Source: Anabaena sp. UHCC 0187 (GTDB taxonomy: Bacteria; Cyanobacteriota; Cyanobacteriia; Cyanobacteriales; Nostocaceae). Taken from it: a stretch of DNA of 39,927 bases. Under the pieces are notes generated by a model. That model saw only the letters and a list, made by a program, of their open reading frames with translations. It did no database searches and was not told where the DNA came from. The stretch spans positions 1-39,927 of the forward strand of contig NZ_VILB01000023.1 of assembly GCF_009712035.1 (NCBI RefSeq), read 5' to 3'. The position numbers were made by a program, and so were the translations under genes. Of the stretch, positions 6,241 to 35,729 are shown in pieces; the stretch's first letter is position 1; each line of letters begins with the position of its first letter.

Positions 6241-6305
6241 AAATGCAAAATTAAAAAATAAAAAATTAGATTCTTCTGTTTGAATTTTCAATTGTTAATT
6301 TGTTT

Positions 6306-8573
6306 ATGAGTTCCCCCCAACCGCCTCAAAAGCCACAAACCTTACTTGGTCAACTGACTCAAGCCGTCAATACTATTCAAGCTAGAGTTGATTTTTCCAA
6401 GCTGGCTCTCAAGCCCAATGCCAAAGTACCAAAATTATTGGTGCATGATGCAGGGGCCAATGAAACGCAAGAATATCCGCTATTAGGCGATCGCTATATT
6501 CTTGGACGTAGTTCTAAATATGATATCGTCGTCCGTAACCAAGTTGTCAGCCAAATTCACCTGTCTCTGTCGCGGGATTCCACCCAAAATACTCCCGTTT
6601 TCACCATCAAGGATGAAAACTCCACCAATGGTATTTATCTGGGCAAAAGGCGAATCAATGCTCTAGAACTGCGTCATGGTGATGTTATTACCTTGGGTCC
6701 ACCAGAACTAGCCGCTTCCGTGCGTCTTCAATATATAGACCCACCAGTTTGGTATGTAAAAGCTGCTACTTGGACAGCTTATGGTGTTGGTGGTGTCACG
6801 ATGCTTATGTCCTTGTCCATAGGTGTGGAATGGCTGAAATTTAGCGTTCGACCCTTACCTACAGCTACTCGCGCCCCTGTGGTTGTCTATGCCCGTGATG
6901 GTTCAACCCCACTCCGTGAACCTCGGAATATCGCCCACATAGACCTGAAAAAGTTATCAGACTTTGGACCTTATTTGGCTTCTGCTGTGGTAGCTTCCGA
7001 GGATAGTCGTTATTATTGGCACTTTGGGGTAGATCCTTTGGGTGTGTTGCGAGCCGTACTAATTAACAGTCGCAGCGGTGATGTTCAACAAGGGGCAAGT
7101 ACAGTTACCCAACAAGTAGCTCGGAGTTTATTCCGTGAATATGTAGGTAGCCAAGACTCTTTAGGAAGAAAAGTCAAGGAAGCTGTCGTCTCCCTCAAGT
7201 TAGAAACCTTTTACAGCAAAGATGATATTTTACTAACTTACTTAAATCGGGTGTTTTTGGGGGCGGATACTTCCGGTTTTGAGGATGCTGCTAAATATTA
7301 CTTTAATAAATCAGCCAAAGAATTAACTCTGGCCGAAGCAGCAACCTTAGTAGGGATTTTACCCGCGCCCAATGCCTTTGATTTTTGTGGCAGTGGTCCG
7401 CGGAAACTGGGAGCAGCCGATTACCGGAATCGAGTCATCAAGCGAATGCTGGAAATGGGTAAAATTACCCAAGAGGAAGCCAACCGCGCCCGCCGTTCTA
7501 CGGTCCAAATCAACCCCAAAGTCTGCGAAAGGCAAGCCAAAACCATTGCCCCCTATTTTTATGATTACGTCTTTCAAGAACTGATCTCAAAACTAGGTCC
7601 TGCAGCCGCAAGAGAAGGTAACTATATCATTGAAACCCAACTAGATCCAAGCATTCAAGCCAAAGCCGAAACCGAGTTAAAAAATTCCATTACCAAAGCT
7701 GGCTCAACTTTTGGGTTTTCTCAAGGGGGGATGGTGACTCTCGACTCGAAAACTGGGAGTATTGTAGCGATGGTAGGGGGGACTGATTACAGAAAAAGCC
7801 AGTTCAATCGGACTGTTCAAGCCCAACGCCAACCAGGTTCTACCTTTAAAATTTTTGCTTACACTGCGGCGCTTGAAAAAGGTATTTCCCCATACAAAAG
7901 TTATTCGTGCAATTCTTTACCTTGGCAGGGCTTTACCTATAAACCCTGCCGGGCTGGTGCTGGTGGTAGTTTAGATATAGCTACTGGTTTGGCACTGTCA
8001 GAAAACCCCATTGCCTTGCGGGTAGCTAAGGAAATTGGGTTAAATAAAGTAGTAGATATGGCGCAAAGGTTGGGTGTGAAATCTGATCTGGAGGCTGTTC
8101 CCGGCTTGGTATTAGGTCAGAGTGTCGTTAATGTTTTAGAAATGACTGGTGCTTTTGGGGCCATTGGCAATCGTGGGGTGTGGAATCCTCCTCATGCTAT
8201 TAGTAGAATTCTGGACAGTAGTGATTGTAAGGATCTTAAAGATCTACAAACCTGTCGGGTTATTTACTCCTTTGATCAAGATCCAGATGGTAATAAACAA
8301 GTGCTAAAAAAAGCAGTTGCCAATCAAATGACTACTTTAATGCAAGGAGTCATTACTAATGGTACAGGTCGCGGTGCAGCTATTGGTTTAGGGGAAGCAG
8401 GTAAAACTGGGACAACAAATAATAATGTTGATCTCTGGTTTATTGGCTTTATTCCTAATCGTCAACTTGTCACTGGCATTTGGTTAGGAAATGACAATAA
8501 TTCCCCTACCTCTGGCAGCAGCGCCCAAGCAGCCCAACTTTGGGGTAATTATATGAGGAAAGTTGCCAAGTAA
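6306..8573 (+). CDS. Class A penicillin-binding protein with N-terminal FHA domain
   Basis: This bifunctional peptidoglycan synthase has 755 residues and joins glycan strands and cross-links peptides outside the membrane. In order it has an FHA domain (about 55-140, with GRSSKYDI and SQIHLSL phosphopeptide-binding landmarks), one membrane segment (about 155-177) and a GT51 glycosyltransferase domain. The latter has EDSRYYWHFGVD with catalytic Glu232, then GASTVTQQ. A penicillin-binding transpeptidase follows, with STFK (Ser512), SEN (565-567) and KTGTT (700-704). All catalytic motifs are intact. The frame is open from a TTG at 6300, but the ATG at 6306 is the more likely start. The FHA domain would face the cytoplasm and could read Ser/Thr phosphorylation; that link is inferred. 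Confidence 0.93.
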   Translation: MSSPQPPQKPQTLLGQLTQAVNTIQARVDFSKLALKPNAKVPKLLVHDAGANETQEYPLLGDRYILGRSSKYDIVVRNQVVSQIHLSLSRDSTQNTPVFTIKDENSTNGIYLGKRRINALELRHGDVITLGPPELAASVRLQYIDPPVWYVKAATWTAYGVGGVTMLMSLSIGVEWLKFSVRPLPTATRAPVVVYARDGSTPLREPRNIAHIDLKKLSDFGPYLASAVVASEDSRYYWHFGVDPLGVLRAVLINSRSGDVQQGASTVTQQVARSLFREYVGSQDSLGRKVKEAVVSLKLETFYSKDDILLTYLNRVFLGADTSGFEDAAKYYFNKSAKELTLAEAATLVGILPAPNAFDFCGSGPRKLGAADYRNRVIKRMLEMGKITQEEANRARRSTVQINPKVCERQAKTIAPYFYDYVFQELISKLGPAAAREGNYIIETQLDPSIQAKAETELKNSITKAGSTFGFSQGGMVTLDSKTGSIVAMVGGTDYRKSQFNRTVQAQRQPGSTFKIFAYTAALEKGISPYKSYSCNSLPWQGFTYKPCRAGAGGSLDIATGLALSENPIALRVAKEIGLNKVVDMAQRLGVKSDLEAVPGLVLGQSVVNVLEMTGAFGAIGNRGVWNPPHAISRILDSSDCKDLKDLQTCRVIYSFDQDPDGNKQVLKKAVANQMTTLMQGVITNGTGRGAAIGLGEAGKTGTTNNNVDLWFIGFIPNRQLVTGIWLGNDNNSPTSGSSAQAAQLWGNYMRKVAK

Positions 8574-21724: not shown

Positions 21725-23935
21725 TTAAGGATTTTGGAAACCATATTGTTTTTGACGGTCTTCAAATCTATATTCACGATTGTAGTTATCATCTGGATCA
21801 TAGCCAATATCGCCAACGAAGCAGAAGGAAACGGCTAAGTTAAAGGTTCTTTTTTCAAATACAAATTCTTTTTCTGGTGGCATTTTACGAAAGTCGTTTT
21901 TAAACTTTTTCCATTCTCTTTGGTTATGTCTATCCATAAATACATCTAAATTCTGTAAGTGATTTAGCCATTTTTCTTTGTTAATTGTGACTGTATTTTC
22001 ATCGGTTTCTTCAAATTCTAAATAAATCTCTTCCAATAATTTCCGCATTTCTTTGGGATATCTTCCAGCTAAAGCTAAAAATGCAATTAATGTTTGTTTA
22101 TGTTCTGCTGTGGGTGGTTCTTTCCAGGTTTTATCATTCTCTGTGGGAGTCCAGATAATTCTAATAATTTTGCAAATATTAATTAGTCGTTTTGCGGTTC
22201 TGGGAGTTAAATCAACGTGCTGACAACATTCTTTTATCCATCTAAATTCTTCCGCAGTAAAGCATTCAAAAGTAACTAATGGGTCGGTATTTACAGAATG
22301 TAGGATTTTTTGATTATTCTTTTCTAAATTATCTTTTTTAGTTCTGGGTTCAGAAACTCTTTGAATATCTGAAGTTTTAGCAGGAGGATAGTTTTCTTCG
22401 ATTTTTTCCTCATTATTAACTGGTATTTCTATACTTTCATCTTGAGATAATTTCTCTGGTAATTCTTCTAGAACCTTTATTTCTGTTGGTTCTGTTGTTT
22501 GTGTAACAATAGATGAATCTTCCCTAGCATCCTTTTGAGATTTCTCTTCAATATCTACCAAAGATTTTAAATATATTGCTGTCACATCTTTGCTAATAGG
22601 ACGCATTCTGTAGGGAAGTTGGATAATTTTCTCCAAATAATCAACACCGGAGGGAGTACCACCACGTTTTAAAACTCCTCTATAAATGTTTTCTAAAGCC
22701 CGACCGATATAACGATCATCTATTGCTAAGACAATGATGAAAATATTCGTATTTAACAACAATTGTACAGCTTCTAAGACTTCAACGACTTTATCAGGAG
22801 GACAACGATCTAAATCATCTATATATAAAACTATTCTTGCTGGTCCTCTAGGGAAATGTTCTTTCAGAATTTTGAGTTTTTCAGGATTTGTTTTTCCTGG
22901 TTTATAGGTTAAATGGTCAGATAAATCCGCTAAATCATCTTGAATTTGGTGCATTAAACCCAGCAATTTTTGATAGGAATTATCCTCTAATCGGTTATTG
23001 ACAAAATCTAATAGTGACTTATATTGAGCAGTTAAACCAATTCGCTGTTTTTGTCGTTCGATTTGTGATTGGAGATTTTCAATTTCTTGCTGGATTTCAG
23101 AATTATTGCTTTTAATTTTATCTTGAATTTTCTGATCCTTATCAACAGCTAGTTTCTGTTTTTCCTGTTCTACACTTTCCTTTGCTACTTGGAATAATTT
23201 GCTGGTTTTGGCTTGGAAAGTCCTAAATTTTTTAAATATTTCAATTCCGTTACTAGCTATAGGGGTAATTGTTGTTAAAAGTGTAGTAAATACAATTGTT
23301 AAGGTAGATGCAATTTCTTTTAATGATGGCAAAAAAATGAATATTATACTATAAATTATAAATGGCAAACATATTATAATTATGATTTTGGGAAGTATTG
23401 TTTTATCTTGTTTAATAAATTCAAGTAAATTAACTATTCTGCTAGGGGTTTCTTCTACAAAATTCTTAATTTTCTCGGATTTTTTAATGAAGTTTTCTAT
23501 TTTATCATCTTTATTTTTAATTAAATTTTCAATTTTTTCAATTAGCTCAGATTCCCCCCATTTATCCAAATTATTAAAAATCGGAAATTGAGTTTCTAAA
23601 TCATTTCTATCTTTAAAATCGTAGGTATTGAGAAAATCTTTAAGAATAGAATTACCAAAATCATCTTTACTCAGTTCTTTAAGTTGAGTTAAAAAGACAA
23701 TAATTCTTGATTTATTTTCAAATTCTTGATTTGTTTCTTTTTCTATTTTCTCCTTTTCTTTTCGTGCTTGTGTCTCTAATTCTTGTAATTTATCTTCTGA
23801 TTCTTTTAATTTTTCCTGTTCTTCCTTTCTAACTTCACTGAGAATCGTCCAAAGGGCATTATCATCCTTGAGGTTAGTAAATACATCTTGTCCCAATTCT
23901 AATTTTAAAATTGCCTTTCTGTCACTATCACTCAA
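21725..23935 (-). CDS. KAP-family P-loop NTPase-like protein, N-terminal Walker A part missing
   Basis: The frame encodes 736 residues. Residues 30-75 and 250-300 are coiled coil, two membrane segments lie at about 179-202 and 209-229, and a strong Walker B region RIVLYIDDLDRCPPDK (367-382) is followed by family-like VLAIDDRYIGRALE and VDYLEKIIQLPYRMRP. This is the C-terminal two thirds of a KAP NTPase, a family often linked to anti-phage or membrane functions. KAP proteins have the Walker A motif before the membrane insert; none is present here. The first start codon is TTG 23933-23935, with a TAA two codons upstream and no ribosome binding site. The next gene ends only about 140 bases away, so the missing part cannot fit. 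It is probably a 5'-truncated remnant, although the frame is intact. Confidence 0.7.
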   Translation of the reverse strand: MSDSDRKAILKLELGQDVFTNLKDDNALWTILSEVRKEEQEKLKESEDKLQELETQARKEKEKIEKETNQEFENKSRIIVFLTQLKELSKDDFGNSILKDFLNTYDFKDRNDLETQFPIFNNLDKWGESELIEKIENLIKNKDDKIENFIKKSEKIKNFVEETPSRIVNLLEFIKQDKTILPKIIIIICLPFIIYSIIFIFLPSLKEIASTLTIVFTTLLTTITPIASNGIEIFKKFRTFQAKTSKLFQVAKESVEQEKQKLAVDKDQKIQDKIKSNNSEIQQEIENLQSQIERQKQRIGLTAQYKSLLDFVNNRLEDNSYQKLLGLMHQIQDDLADLSDHLTYKPGKTNPEKLKILKEHFPRGPARIVLYIDDLDRCPPDKVVEVLEAVQLLLNTNIFIIVLAIDDRYIGRALENIYRGVLKRGGTPSGVDYLEKIIQLPYRMRPISKDVTAIYLKSLVDIEEKSQKDAREDSSIVTQTTEPTEIKVLEELPEKLSQDESIEIPVNNEEKIEENYPPAKTSDIQRVSEPRTKKDNLEKNNQKILHSVNTDPLVTFECFTAEEFRWIKECCQHVDLTPRTAKRLINICKIIRIIWTPTENDKTWKEPPTAEHKQTLIAFLALAGRYPKEMRKLLEEIYLEFEETDENTVTINKEKWLNHLQNLDVFMDRHNQREWKKFKNDFRKMPPEKEFVFEKRTFNLAVSFCFVGDIGYDPDDNYNREYRFEDRQKQYGFQNP

Positions 23936-30042: not shown

Positions 30043-30339
30043 AATCATTAATTTTGTCAGGGTGGGACAACCCCACTCTCCCTTCTCCTAAGAGGATGTT
30101 TTAAAAGTTTTTAATGTGTCAACAGACCCCTCTCCAAACCTCTCCCCTACCAGGGGAGAGGCTTTAAAACCCCCATTCCAGCAACAAAAGTTTTTCCGCT
30201 TCCCTCTCCTTGTAGGAGAGGGTTAGGGAGAGGTAGGGAAGGGGGGTTAGGTTTTTGGAGATTATGGGTTTCATATAATACTTTATGGCTAACGCCACGC
30301 TTTGCTATCAAACAACCTCTAACTCCTTCTCCTGACTCC
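30043..30339. repeat. Dispersed palindromic repeats between convergent genes
   Basis: Two strong stems are present: CCTCTCCCCT-ACC-AGGGGAGAGG (30139-30161) and CCCTCTCCT-TGT-AGGAGAGGG (30202-30222). Longer complementary words (CCCCTCTCC...GGAGAGG) link them, as in the pyrimidine-rich dispersed elements common in cyanobacterial intergenic DNA. A GCTAACGCCACGC word (about 30287) is shared with the region near 13640. The stems could end transcription of both murE and the convergent kinase. Confidence 0.75.
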
Positions 30340-33300
30340 TTAAAAAGGAATCCTAACTGTAAATGTTGTTCCCTTCTGTACTTCGCTATCTAATGTAATT
30401 TCACCTTGATGTTGATCAACACATTTTTTGACTATAGCTAAACCCAACCCTGTACCAGAAATACTACCAACGTTAGAAGCTCTATAAAATGATCCAAATA
30501 AATTAATTTGATCTTTTTCAGGAATACCAATACCAGAATCTTTAATTTTAAAGATTATTTGGTCATTTTCGATATTCAATCTGAAATCAACTGAACTATT
30601 TTCAGGAGAATATTTAATAGCATTACTGAGGAGATTTGTGAGAATTTGGCGAATCAGTTTTGGGTCAAACTGCACAATTAAAATATCATTTAATGGTGGC
30701 TCGCTGGTATTCACAGAAAATTCTATTGTATGTTTGCTGCTAGTAGCTTCTATTTCGTTTTTGAGATGACGACAAAAGCCAATTATATCTAGTGATTCTG
30801 GTTTCAATTCCATTTTCTCGGCTTCAGCGCGGTTGATCATGAGAACATCATCCAGAAGTTGGACTATATGCTTAATGGTTTTTTGAACAACCTCTAGGTG
30901 TCCTTGTATTCTTTCTGAATTGAGGCGATCAATAAAATTTTGTAAAATCCCTGTAGATGAGGAAATAATGGCTAAAGGTGTGCGAAACTCATGGGATGCC
31001 ATACTAATGAAGCGCGATCGCATTTGACTGACTTCTTTTTCTTGAATTAAAGATTTTTGTAGTTGCTCAAATAAGTGCGCTTGTTGAATAGCGATCGCTA
31101 ATTGGTTGGCTATTTGTTGCAAAACTTCTGCTTCGGATTCTTCCCAGATGCGTTTTGTACTACAAGCATGAACAACTAAAATACCCCAGAGTTTATTATG
31201 AGGATTATTTACCCAGCGGCCAGTTTCATTATCTGCGATGTCGTGCAATATGGGAGCGACAATTTTCGACTGAATTTGTCCTTCTAAGGAATATTCTACT
31301 AGGCAATCTTTCCAGATATCGTTCATCACATCAGGAACAATCCGGGGTTGACCTTGCCAGTAGCATTCTAAAATGTCCTGTGGCCATGTTTCATCGTCCC
31401 AATGACGATCTTTCAAAGCCACATAACCGCTAGTAACGACTTCTTCGACAATTTTACTTTTACCATCATCAAACAGACGGTAGATAATCACCCGATCAGC
31501 CTGCATTAATTCTTGGACTTTTTGGCTGACAGTAGCGAGAATCTGATTTAAGTCTAAGGTTGAGCGAATTTCTTCGGTGATTTGCTGAATGATTTTTTGC
31601 CGTTGTAGTTGCAGTAAAGTAGCTTGTTCAGCTTGATTTCTAATAATTAGTTCTGATTGTACTTGCTCATATAAATGCGCTTGTTGAATAGCGATCGCTA
31701 ATTGTTCAGCTAATTGTTGGACAAGTTCAACTTCAAAATCTTGCCAATGACGGGGTGCAGAACATTGATGAATACACAACAAACCCCATAAATTTTCTCC
31801 CTGTAGTAATGGCACAATTAAATTAGCGCGAATCTGAAATTGTGCCAAAATATCACGATGACAATCTGTGAGTCCGGCATTGTCAATATCATCTACTACT
31901 TGGATTCTCCCTTGTTGATAGTAGGGAGTATATTGTTCACCAAAGCAGTGGTCATGAATTTTAGTTTCTAGAGCAGATTTAAAACCACCAACTACAGCTT
32001 CTGAAACAAATTCACCATCATGATAATTACTGTCAGGATCGAATTTAAAAATTCCTACCCGATCTACATTGATTAATTGCCGGATTTCTTCAGCAGCGGT
32101 ATTAAAAATAATAACTAAATCCAGGGATTGACGAATGCGTTGGGTAGTCTCGCGCAGTAAATGTTCTCTTTCTACTTGCTGCTTAATTTTTTGTTCTGCT
32201 TGTTTGCGTTCTGTAACATCAATATTCACCCCAATCATCCGTTGTCCTTCCCCTTGGGAATTGCGCTGGACAATAGCGTAAGCTTGGATAATCCGGACTT
32301 TACCATCCGGCAAGACTATTCTAAATTCAGGATCACAGTCTCTTTCACCCCTAATCGCTTGCCATATCCACTCACGGGTATGTACTGCATCCGCTGGATG
32401 TAAGCCCCTTTCCCATGCGTCCACCGTACCTGAAAATTCTGAGGCTTTGACTCCATAGATTTTATACATTATGTTATCCCAAATCAAGCGATCATTGACT
32501 AGATCCCAGTCCCAGATGCCAATTTCCGCAGATTTGACTGCTAATTCTAGACGATTGGAGAGGTTAAACAGTTCGGCTGTCCGTTGTTGGACTCTGGTTT
32601 CTAGTTCTTGGTTAAGTTGATAGAGGGCTGATTCTGCCTGTTGTTTTTGTGTGAGTTCAATTTGTACCTGTTGGTAAGTCTTTGCCTGTTTAATAGCAAT
32701 TGCCACTTGAATTGATAGTTGTTGCACCAGTTGGATTTCCTCAACTTCCCAATGGTGAGGAATATCGCGGTAACTGGTTAACATCAACCCCCAAATTTTA
32801 TTTTCCACAATAATGGGAATCATCAGTTTAGATCGAATATCAAACCCGATCAGCATCTCCTGATGGCATTGAGTCATGGATTCCAAGTGAATGTCATTAA
32901 TTACCCGAATTTTCCCTTGAAGATAAGATTCTAGGTATTCAGGAGTAATACAAGGATCATGGGGTTCGGTATGGAGAACGGAAATTCCACCGGCAAGAAT
33001 AGATTCGGCAATCACTTTACCACTAAAGTCAGGACGGAACTGGTAAATAATTACGCGATCGCATTGCAACAGCGATCTAATTTTTGCAACTGTGGTATTG
33101 AGAATTTCTTCTACATCTAAAGATGAGCGAATTTGATCACTAATTTTAGTAATTAACTGCTCATGCTCTACTTTTTTTCTGAGTGTAATGGTGCGCTCTT
33201 CTACTTGCTGTCCTAGTTCAACATTGCGATTTTCTAATAATTGTATTTTCTCTGTTTCTAGTTGCGATACTTTTTTTTCTAATATTGCTGTTAATTTATA

Positions 33301-34176
33301 TAATTCTAAGGGGTTGATAACTTGTAAAATACTGGTTTGGGTAACAATGCCCAACAATTCCCCTTGCTGTCCTGTTACTGCTAAACGCTGAATCAATCGC
33401 TGTTCCATGATCTGCTGCACAGCCCACAGAGATTCATCAGCATTGACGCAGAAAACAGGGGTACTCATCACATCTGCTGCTGTATAGGTATCAAAATTTA
33501 GGTCTAGAGCCTGAAACTGGACAATATCACGCTCAGTTAAAACGCCAATGGGAATTGTTAAAGATGCCTGTGTTTGCACAATCATCACGGAACTAATGCG
33601 ATTTTCTGCCATTAAGCGAGCGATCGCTAATACGGAAACATCCGCAACCGCACAAATTACCTTGGTCGTCATCACTTCATTTACCAACCGCAATCGTAAC
33701 AAGTCCGTAGGCCGTGATGTTTGCCGCAAACTTTCATGAGTCAGCATTCCCACCAGTTGATTTTGGTCATCAACCACTGGTAGATGGCGAATGTGGTGAT
33801 GTTGAAGCAGATTAATGGCAAAAAACAGGTCATGAAACTGTGACTCGCGCAAGGTGACGACAGGATGATTCATGACATCACCGATGGCTAAATTTGCCAA
33901 ATTTCGTTTCTGTGCGCTGATTCGGACTACATCCCTTTCTGTAAAAATCCCCACAGGTTGATTATTTTCTACCACCAGGACACAACTAGAACGCGCCTCT
34001 ATTTGTAATTTATCCTGTTGATTATCAGTGGTTTCGGCAACTGAACAAACTCGTCTTATCCCACTCATGAGGGTGATCGCTTCTGTAACAGTTGTATCCG
34101 ATTGCACTATTAGCGGGTTACGAACGATAGCTAATTTTAATTCCGCTTCACTAATAGCATTGATAGGTGTTAACAT
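30340..34176 (-). CDS. CBS-GAF-PAS-GAF-GAF histidine kinase with cyanobacteriochrome-like GAF domains
   Basis: This cytoplasmic sensor kinase has 1278 residues. In order: two CBS pairs (about 10-150 and 165-290), a coiled coil (about 295-340), GAF1 (345-495), PAS/PAC (540-660), GAF2 (680-835), GAF3 (870-1037), HisKA with SHEFRTP and phospho-acceptor His1062, and an HATPase domain with NLLSNAIKYS (1181-1190), DSGIGIP (1213-1219) and GTGLGLAIV (1241-1249). The kinase motifs are intact. GAF1 has D-P-C-I (407-410) and C-H (437-438). GAF2 has D-H-C-F (742-745) and C-H (772-773). Both Cys pairs are 28 residues apart, as in DXCF cyanobacteriochromes, so bilin binding and light sensing are likely. 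GAF3 keeps one Cys (958), followed by Leu. CBS pairs usually bind adenine nucleotides. No response regulator lies nearby. Confidence 0.92.
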   Translation of the reverse strand: MLTPINAISEAELKLAIVRNPLIVQSDTTVTEAITLMSGIRRVCSVAETTDNQQDKLQIEARSSCVLVVENNQPVGIFTERDVVRISAQKRNLANLAIGDVMNHPVVTLRESQFHDLFFAINLLQHHHIRHLPVVDDQNQLVGMLTHESLRQTSRPTDLLRLRLVNEVMTTKVICAVADVSVLAIARLMAENRISSVMIVQTQASLTIPIGVLTERDIVQFQALDLNFDTYTAADVMSTPVFCVNADESLWAVQQIMEQRLIQRLAVTGQQGELLGIVTQTSILQVINPLELYKLTAILEKKVSQLETEKIQLLENRNVELGQQVEERTITLRKKVEHEQLITKISDQIRSSLDVEEILNTTVAKIRSLLQCDRVIIYQFRPDFSGKVIAESILAGGISVLHTEPHDPCITPEYLESYLQGKIRVINDIHLESMTQCHQEMLIGFDIRSKLMIPIIVENKIWGLMLTSYRDIPHHWEVEEIQLVQQLSIQVAIAIKQAKTYQQVQIELTQKQQAESALYQLNQELETRVQQRTAELFNLSNRLELAVKSAEIGIWDWDLVNDRLIWDNIMYKIYGVKASEFSGTVDAWERGLHPADAVHTREWIWQAIRGERDCDPEFRIVLPDGKVRIIQAYAIVQRNSQGEGQRMIGVNIDVTERKQAEQKIKQQVEREHLLRETTQRIRQSLDLVIIFNTAAEEIRQLINVDRVGIFKFDPDSNYHDGEFVSEAVVGGFKSALETKIHDHCFGEQYTPYYQQGRIQVVDDIDNAGLTDCHRDILAQFQIRANLIVPLLQGENLWGLLCIHQCSAPRHWQDFEVELVQQLAEQLAIAIQQAHLYEQVQSELIIRNQAEQATLLQLQRQKIIQQITEEIRSTLDLNQILATVSQKVQELMQADRVIIYRLFDDGKSKIVEEVVTSGYVALKDRHWDDETWPQDILECYWQGQPRIVPDVMNDIWKDCLVEYSLEGQIQSKIVAPILHDIADNETGRWVNNPHNKLWGILVVHACSTKRIWEESEAEVLQQIANQLAIAIQQAHLFEQLQKSLIQEKEVSQMRSRFISMASHEFRTPLAIISSSTGILQNFIDRLNSERIQGHLEVVQKTIKHIVQLLDDVLMINRAEAEKMELKPESLDIIGFCRHLKNEIEATSSKHTIEFSVNTSEPPLNDILIVQFDPKLIRQILTNLLSNAIKYSPENSSVDFRLNIENDQIIFKIKDSGIGIPEKDQINLFGSFYRASNVGSISGTGLGLAIVKKCVDQHQGEITLDSEVQKGTTFTVRIPF

Positions 34177-34277: not shown

Positions 34278-35729
34278 TTAGACTTGGTGACTAACTTCCA
34301 AAGGTAAGAAAATAGTCAATACTTCCCCATTTTGAGGACGTTGACGCACAATCAATTTTCCACCAATTGCTTGAAATAAATGCTTAGTTGCCGCCATATT
34401 TAAACTAATTGCTCCTGTTTCCGGCTGAAACATTAATAATTGACCTAAAGATTTACGAATTGGTGGTGTTGTCGTATAGCCTTTATCTTGACAATCAAAC
34501 TGAGGAGATAATTGCAATTTTAGTTGATCACCAGCAGGAATGACTTGCACTTGAATACTACTACCAGGAGGTAAACTGCGGGTAAAATTCTCTATTAAGC
34601 CGGTGAGTACCCGGTCTAGCATCGCTGGATTACTAACCACTGTGGGCAATTGCTTGGGTAAAACCACATTTAAAGTTAAATTACGGCGATTTGCTGCTTG
34701 TTGCCAACGGGGAATACTTTGCTGTAAAACTTGATCTAAACACATTGGTGTCAGTTGGGAATTAGCAAATTTTGAAGGTTGTGATAAATTTTCTAATTCT
34801 GCTGCTTTAAATAATAACTCCATCCGGTCGATTTGCTCAGTACATTCATGATCAATAACTTCTAAACGACTGATAACATTCACAGGTAAATCCTGGCGTT
34901 TTAATAGTAACCGTGTCATCATCCGAATTGTTGTCAACGGAGTGCGGACTTCATGGGCAAAGGCTTGGAGTAATTCCACATCAGAACGAGATGGAGATTT
35001 TGGCGGTGGAGTTGGTGAATGACAATATGATGCAGTATGTGTAACTGGATTATTTTCTGTAACTGTTAATTCTTGCAGTAATAACTGACTAAATTGAATT
35101 ATAGTGTGATAGTCTGGTGCAACTAAAGGATAGTTTTGCACCTTAATGTCTAAATCAGCAAACAATTCTGGATTAGTTAAAACTACCCTAGCACCTAAAG
35201 ATTGCCAAGCTTTTTGTACTACTTCTGGTTCAAAGGAAAATAAAAACTCTTTTTTACCATTTTGATGTTCTGCCAAAACCAGAACTAATCTAAATTTATC
35301 TGTAAATACTAAACAAAACTGTTCCGAACCCAGAGGATCAGCCGGTAATAAAGGTAAGATAGATTCTTGAAAAGTGGGATGATGGTGATTAATTTCGGCT
35401 ATACTTTCTATATTATTAATATTCTGCGCCATTTCTGATGGCATCATGAATGGCATCAAAGCCAAAGGGTTAAAGGGTCTGGCTGTAAAAGTTACTGTTT
35501 GTAACTGCTGTGTTAGTTTTGGATGACTAAATAAGGGTGCAGGTGCAGCTAATACCAAACCTTGAGTAGTATCAAATGAAGTTGTGGCTAAAGTTTTCAA
35601 CAGCAGGTTTTCCGTAGCTGCTAGACTAACACGCCATTGCTGTTCTGCTTTAGCCGTAGAACACTCAGCGATATGAGATTGACTTCCAGATAAAACTTCC
35701 TTGAGACTTGGTAAAATCCATTCGTACAC
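34278..35729 (-). CDS. Histidine kinase-like protein with degenerate ATP-binding domain
   Basis: This 483-residue protein has an N-terminal region of about 220 residues that I do not recognise (it includes a DICT-like or GAF-like stretch around EQFCLVFTDKFRLVLVLAEH), a proline-rich linker (about 238-248), and a HisKA domain with AFAHEVRTPLTT (256-267, His259). The C-terminal HATPase-like region has only a remnant N box (IENFTRSL, with Asn381), no DxGxG box and no GTGLGL box; the equivalent position reads QPETGAISLNMAA. Autophosphorylation is therefore doubtful, although it might be phosphorylated in trans or act as a scaffold. It lies 101 bases upstream of the CBS/GAF kinase on the same strand. 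The start ATG gives MYEWILPSLK. Confidence 0.82.
   Translation of the reverse strand: MYEWILPSLKEVLSGSQSHIAECSTAKAEQQWRVSLAATENLLLKTLATTSFDTTQGLVLAAPAPLFSHPKLTQQLQTVTFTARPFNPLALMPFMMPSEMAQNINNIESIAEINHHHPTFQESILPLLPADPLGSEQFCLVFTDKFRLVLVLAEHQNGKKEFLFSFEPEVVQKAWQSLGARVVLTNPELFADLDIKVQNYPLVAPDYHTIIQFSQLLLQELTVTENNPVTHTASYCHSPTPPPKSPSRSDVELLQAFAHEVRTPLTTIRMMTRLLLKRQDLPVNVISRLEVIDHECTEQIDRMELLFKAAELENLSQPSKFANSQLTPMCLDQVLQQSIPRWQQAANRRNLTLNVVLPKQLPTVVSNPAMLDRVLTGLIENFTRSLPPGSSIQVQVIPAGDQLKLQLSPQFDCQDKGYTTTPPIRKSLGQLLMFQPETGAISLNMAATKHLFQAIGGKLIVRQRPQNGEVLTIFLPLEVSHQV

Follow-up and report, generated by a model that had tools for sequence, protein, structure and literature searches.

A CBS-containing histidine kinase of Anabaena sp. 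UHCC 0187 with a far-red-type GAF domain and two dual-cysteine GAF domains

The window analysed here is the 39,927-nucleotide contig NZ_VILB01000023.1 of Anabaena sp. UHCC 0187, the whole of contig 15 in a host genome of 5.1 Mb and 57 contigs. On its minus strand, an open reading frame (ORF) spanning 30340-34176 specifies a protein of 1278 residues in which CBS, GAF, PAS_3, HisKA and HATPase_c are each found by Pfam above the family's own cut-off (Table 1). We are fairly confident that this gene is a relative of Anacy_2551, one of the histidine kinases with several sensors that occur in heterocyst-forming cyanobacteria, and that its product would sense far-red light and carry two further dual-cysteine sensors and possibly a nucleotide input. 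An initial annotation of the window, made from the letters alone, had described a CBS-containing histidine kinase with two dual-cysteine GAF domains. Its coordinates and strand are exact, its four cysteines (Cys409 in HDPCI, Cys437 in TQCHQ, Cys744 in HDHCF and Cys772 in TDCHR) stand where it placed them, and Pfam finds four CBS stretches together with HisKA and HATPase_c, whose H-box, N-box and G-boxes are all intact. The two dual-cysteine GAF domains are real as well, but a third GAF domain, at about residues 868-1040 and with Cys958 followed by Leu, had been overlooked.

Table 1. Features of the receptor gene in the window
Feature	Position	Strand	Basis
Whole gene, 1278 residues: CBS x4, GAF1, PAS, GAF2, GAF3, HisKA, HATPase_c	30340..34176	-	ORF and Pfam
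Four-CBS N-terminal module, about residues 10-290, limits by eye	33307..34149	-	Pfam CBS, 4 stretches; motifs; fold matches
GAF1, residues 347-505; dual-Cys DPCI and CH; Lys450; Ser468 at usual His position	32662..33138	-	Pfam, alignment, tree
Cys409 codon (second Cys, DPCI)	32950..32952	-	Translation
Cys437 codon (canonical Cys, C-H)	32866..32868	-	Translation
PAS_3, residues 565-651; sequence and number vary between relatives	32224..32484	-	Pfam
GAF2, residues 679-840; DHCF, CH, RAN, HQC	31657..32142	-	Pfam, alignment, tree
Cys744 codon (DXCF Cys)	31945..31947	-	Translation
Cys772 codon (canonical Cys, C-H)	31861..31863	-	Translation
GAF3, residues ~868-1040, far-red cyanobacteriochrome type	31057..31575	-	71% identity to 2551g3/6UV8; Foldseek 6uv8
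Cys958 codon (canonical Cys, C-L)	31303..31305	-	Translation
HisKA, H-box HEFRTPL (His1062)	30817..31023	-	Pfam and motif
HATPase_c with N-box NLLSNAIKY, G-boxes DSGIGIP and GTGLGLAI	30343..30666	-	Pfam and motif

A far-red-type domain adjoins the kinase

GAF3, which directly precedes HisKA, is 71% identical over 167 residues (BLASTP) to 2551g3, and the structure of the latter, 6UV8, scores 271 bits against it in a comparison with solved structures. A published study identifies 6UV8 as the far-red-absorbing state of Anacy_2551g3, a domain from Anabaena cylindrica PCC 7122, with a peak at 728 nm, and places its basic residue Lys956 at a propionate (PMC11480761). GAF3 bears both marks by which we recognise the far-red lineage, namely grouping with 2551g3 and a Cys-Leu pair accompanied by Glu and Lys. 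A tree was built from 96 GAF rows, eight solved bilin references among them, and 47 of its 93 inner branches are well supported; in it, GAF3 and 2551g3 share an 8-row clade (100/98) that is nested in a 14-row far-red clade (100/100) beside RcaE. In the alignment, Glu929, Cys958-Leu959 and Lys971 occupy RcaE-type positions, three of which (Glu929, Leu959 and Lys971) we take to be those of the Glu-Leu-Lys triad of RcaE. An AlphaFold model of residues 664-1046, with a predicted local distance difference test score (pLDDT) of 83 and a predicted template-modelling score (pTM) of 0.58, is matched by Foldseek to 6UV8 at 72% identity, a TM-score of 0.77 by target and a root-mean-square deviation (rmsd) of 9.8.

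The CBS-linked family of Anacy_2551

With 2551g3 as the query, 217 genomes of the window's family (Nostocaceae) were searched at a cut-off of E <= 1e-40. Matches were obtained in 36, the host of the window included, and the loci of all 36 were inspected together with two order-level genomes, G042 and G057. One genome, G062, contains a 1277-residue open frame that matches 2551g3 at 100% and in which, numbering from Met, QSKIV has its Lys at 956, in accord with the published numbering; because of these two agreements, the frame is very probably Anacy_2551 itself. At the threshold used, Pfam reports three stretches each of CBS and GAF in this frame, along with PAS, HisKA and HATPase_c, and the same genome carries a second such ORF of 1886 residues.

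A far-red-type GAF, defined here by Glu, Leu after the Cys position, and Lys, lies within one stop-to-stop frame with a BLASTP match to residues 1-296 of the window protein in 31 genomes, which makes 29 of the 36 family genomes once G042 and G057 are set aside; the CBS match is partial in some of them (G168, G175). The seven genomes outside the 29 are G001, G012, G018, G065, G200, G217 and G223, and in G001 and G018 the far-red GAF and CBS parts are found on separate ORFs. In G008, GAF1 is truncated and runs into GAF3. Since the Anacy_2551-like ORF has the same layout and the two parts share one ORF in 29 of 36 genomes, the CBS module is normal for this far-red kinase family. It had been singled out as unusual in the initial annotation; it is instead the usual N-terminus. 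A unique fusion of CBS with a cyanobacteriochrome can likewise be dismissed, as three further CBS-GAF kinases are encoded in the host genome. A literature search for CBS-linked cyanobacteriochromes returned nothing on the topic as judged by its listings, the main papers on far-red receptors being outside its reach.

The two dual-cysteine domains

GAF2 aligns with TePixJ such that DHCF (742-745) stands over DPCF and Cys772-His773 over CH; it thus has both Asp-X-Cys-Phe and the canonical Cys-His, and this alignment suggests that both cysteines line the bilin pocket. In the tree, GAF2 falls in a 12-row clade (100/95) of which 11 rows read DXCF. Because this clade joins the red/green clade of AnPixJg2 and Slr1393g3 (89/86), and TePixJ, the sole characterised DXCF domain in the tree, stands apart, GAF2 appears to qualify as a DXCF domain through its motif rather than its place in the tree. 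In a published study, DXCF domains are said to occur across lineages, the second Cys having been regained in some red/green-lineage domains (PMC11284453). The position of GAF2 often differs among relatives: 25 of 35 GAF domains directly upstream of a far-red-type GAF have both cysteines, nine have only the canonical one, and the remaining one, a truncated domain, has only the second.

GAF1 is more diverged. All three GAF domains of the window protein share a group of 74 rows with the complete set of eight bilin references and are separated from the genome's most distant GAFs, a placement that agrees with the bilin-type phylogeny expected for GAF1 and GAF2 in the initial annotation, although the forks that set this group apart (85/91 for 74 rows, 92/77 for 82 rows) are not among the best supported. 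GAF1 belongs to a 16-row clade of its own (99/93), made up of CBS-linked GAFs, and by eye the second and canonical cysteines are present in all 16. For a wider count we used 36 CBS-bearing ORFs, mostly from genomes picked for a far-red GAF. Among the 31 with a counterpart of GAF1, one of which is truncated, the second Cys is kept in 30, the canonical Cys in 29 and both in 28. Asp407, Cys409, Cys437, His438 and Arg448 rank among the 40 best conserved of the 158 GAF1 columns, and Lys is found at the RAN position in 29 of the 31, as with Lys450, which stands where TePixJ has Asn.

GAF1 is not a strict DXCF domain, since it reads DPCI rather than Asp-X-Cys-Phe and has Ser468 at the usual His position; among the 31 relatives, the fourth letter of the motif is F in 15, I in 10, L in 5 and S in 1. 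Assignment to the DXCIP lineage, described as D-X-C-I-P without the canonical Cys (PMC6628166), is excluded by DPCIT and the presence of Cys437. The 28-residue spacing of the cysteines, previously taken as evidence, was also rejected as an independent argument: when 47 GAF rows of the host genome are aligned, no distance between the two columns is commoner (it occurs in 22), and 10 of these 22 do not carry the full cysteine pair. The dual-cysteine state itself is not rare, as 13 of the 47 rows have it, the window's two included.

These results bear directly on the earlier picture of mainly a two-chromophore blue/green photoreceptor of the TePixJ type with an attached energy sensor. The two dual-cysteine GAFs and the CBS domains that suggested it are present, and the likeness to TePixJ survives in the motifs of GAF2. 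However, TePixJ groups with neither of these two GAF domains, the candidate chromophore domains number three, and the kinase-proximal one is closely similar to a far-red receptor; we therefore consider this version very improbable. An array of just two GAF domains is ruled out by the third, which is seen both by Pfam and in the match to 6UV8.

The CBS module

CBS1 and CBS3 contain GxxTERD sites (GIFTERDV at 76 and GVLTERDI at 211), and CBS2 and CBS4 have TxxS. Thr/Ser-x-x-Asp is presumably the ribose motif of nucleotide-binding CBS domains, and among the 19 proteins compared TxxD is present in every CBS3 and in 15 of the CBS1 domains. An AlphaFold model of residues 1-515 reached a mean pLDDT of 81 and a pTM of 0.44. 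The modelled domains appear credible; their arrangement is not established because the pTM values of this model and that of residues 664-1046 are low. Foldseek matched the 1-515 model to bilin GAFs first and then to CBS proteins, including AMP-bound 3ddj, MJ1225 and ATP-bound AMPK 4eak.

The module might instead be structural, serving dimerisation and sensing no ligand. Such a role would be consistent with the absence of the motif Asp from CBS1 in 4 of the 19 proteins, and with the poor whole-chain fit to 3ddj and 4eak (rmsd 18-20). Nevertheless, the conservation of TxxD and the occurrence of two nucleotide-bound proteins among the fold matches argue for a ligand, and we regard the purely structural role as rather unlikely.

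Proposed mechanism and points against it

We propose that the window protein most likely holds as many as three bilins. In GAF3, the domain joined to HisKA, phycocyanobilin on Cys958 would absorb far-red light, and this domain would be the kinase's principal light input. In GAF2, Cys772 is likely to be the permanent and Cys744 the reversible attachment site, with blue light absorbed in one state, and GAF1, as a diverged dual-cysteine domain, probably binds a bilin too. The four CBS domains would probably bind adenine nucleotides via the GxxTERD sites of CBS1 and CBS3, thereby biasing the dimer, and His1062 would hand its phosphate on to a response regulator whose gene lies elsewhere. In favour of this proposal we count the homology of GAF3, the ORF of the same layout in G062, the motifs of GAF2, the kinase motifs, the AlphaFold and Foldseek matches, and the bilin enzymes of the host genome, i.e. 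one bilin reductase match and two haem oxygenase matches.

Several observations weigh against it. The far-red-type GAFs of G151 and G217 are without the canonical Cys, and GAF3 is missing altogether from one related frame of 1081 residues (L002), whose GAF2 reads DHYF. Anacy_2551 itself has C-Y in GAF1 and NKCF in GAF2. To these may be added the placement of GAF2 beside the red/green clade, the low pTM values, and contig 15, on which none of the 98 receiver-domain matches of the genome is located. The remaining points concern GAF1. Ser468 takes the place of the His, Tyr or Asn seen in the eight references, and the residue there in the 31 relatives is T in 15, S in 12, A in 2, H in 1 and a gap in 1. 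The second Cys is lost in G168 (DTWF) and the canonical Cys in G198 (YH), 5 of the 36 ORFs with CBS domains show no GAF upstream of residue 420 (G042, G057, G153, G166, G175), and both cysteines are gone from the first GAF of the host genome's own CBS paralogue on contig C5 (L057). The first GAF of L029 is also without both cysteines, which counts against a general rule.

The points on GAF1 would suit an arrangement in which only GAF2 and GAF3 carry bilins, and GAF1 has lost chromophore binding and acts as a dimer or relay domain between the CBS module and the rest. The retention of both cysteines in most relatives and the conservation of the surrounding positions speak for a bilin in GAF1, as does the lack of GAF1-type cysteines in the distant GAFs of the genome (L064, L067, L070, L072), and we hold the loss of binding to be unlikely. 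A bolder extension of the three-bilin proposal is that GAF1 represents an uncharacterised dual-cysteine cyanobacteriochrome lineage that travels with the CBS module and may show a new photocycle, so that GAF1, GAF2 and GAF3 together would make one kinase comparing short-wave with far-red light, gated by adenine nucleotides; we offer it tentatively, as a doubtful possibility. GAF1 is a clear candidate for an uncharacterised photocycle.

To our knowledge, far-red cyanobacteriochromes have so far been studied mainly as isolated GAF domains. By our survey, their usual place in the window's family appears to be the end of an array whose start, formed by CBS, is most often followed by a dual-cysteine GAF. 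If the CBS domains bind nucleotides, these kinases would allow one to ask directly how light colour is weighed against energy state in a cyanobacterium.

Loss in relatives and genomic setting

A far-red GAF match is found in 10 of the 16 genomes listed of the window's genus, its own included. In a close relative, a contig of G014 (L008) keeps the neighbours of the gene, namely BON, a kinase-like gene, murE, glutaredoxin, AI-2E and LytR, at 73-98% protein identity. All that is left of the receptor there is a short piece of its beginning and two segments corresponding to residues 670-800 and 1065-1277; the reading frame of the first piece differs from that of the other two and meets a stop after 62 codons. 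From the losses and remnants in relatives together with the genus count, we conclude that the receptor is dispensable in some lineages. The remnant occupies 4470-5620 of L008 and has two internal deletions, at whose joins the BLASTN coordinates overlap by 8 and by 2 bases. A copy of 88% identity (L001) has no murE in the flanks at hand, in contrast to L004 and L008, where murE is present; the gene may have moved.

In the window, the gene directly upstream (34278-35729, minus strand) is histidine-kinase-like with a HisKA match and no HATPase_c match by Pfam, and may be a degenerate kinase; its counterpart in L008 is 95% identical. Several short near-repeats of the CCCTCTCC type were noticed by eye between the receptor gene and murE (30043-30339). 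Further away are a PBP1A-type penicillin-binding protein with an N-terminal FHA domain (6300-8573, plus strand) and a KAP-family P-loop NTPase that weakly resembles the defence ATPase QatA (21725-23935, minus strand). The host genome as a whole has 59 Pfam GAF matches, 58 of them above the cut-off.

Comparison with known systems

TePixJ (PDB 3VV4/4FOF) shares DXCF, C-H, RAN and HQC with GAF2 at aligned positions, but it is only 41% identical to it and is listed as a chemotaxis protein. The best solved match by score for both GAF1 and GAF2 is the dual-sensor histidine kinase PPHK (PDB 6OAP), with 39% identity to GAF1 and 48% to GAF2; it differs in having DQYF where GAF2 has DHCF, and thus no second Cys at this place. 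RcaE (PDB 7CKV) has the Glu, C-L and Lys positions in common with GAF3 and joins it in one 18-row clade (97/83), whereas their identity is 35% and GAF3 lies in the separate far-red clade.

Anacy_2551 is similar to the window protein throughout, with the order CBS-GAF1-PAS-GAF2-GAF3-HisKA-HATPase, a frame of 1277 against 1278 residues and 67% identity overall (CBS 77%, GAF1 71%, GAF2 78%, GAF3 72%, kinase 68%). The two differ in the motifs of GAF1 and GAF2, where the window protein has C-H and DHCF, and in PAS, which is just 25% identical over 97 residues. Because the flanking domains are 71-78% identical, this suggests a PAS swap between the window gene and the Anacy_2551-like ORF (L088); PAS_3 stretches number one in the window protein and seven in another relative (L005). 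Judged by its sequence, the window protein adds to the known Anacy_2551 kind of far-red sensor kinase.

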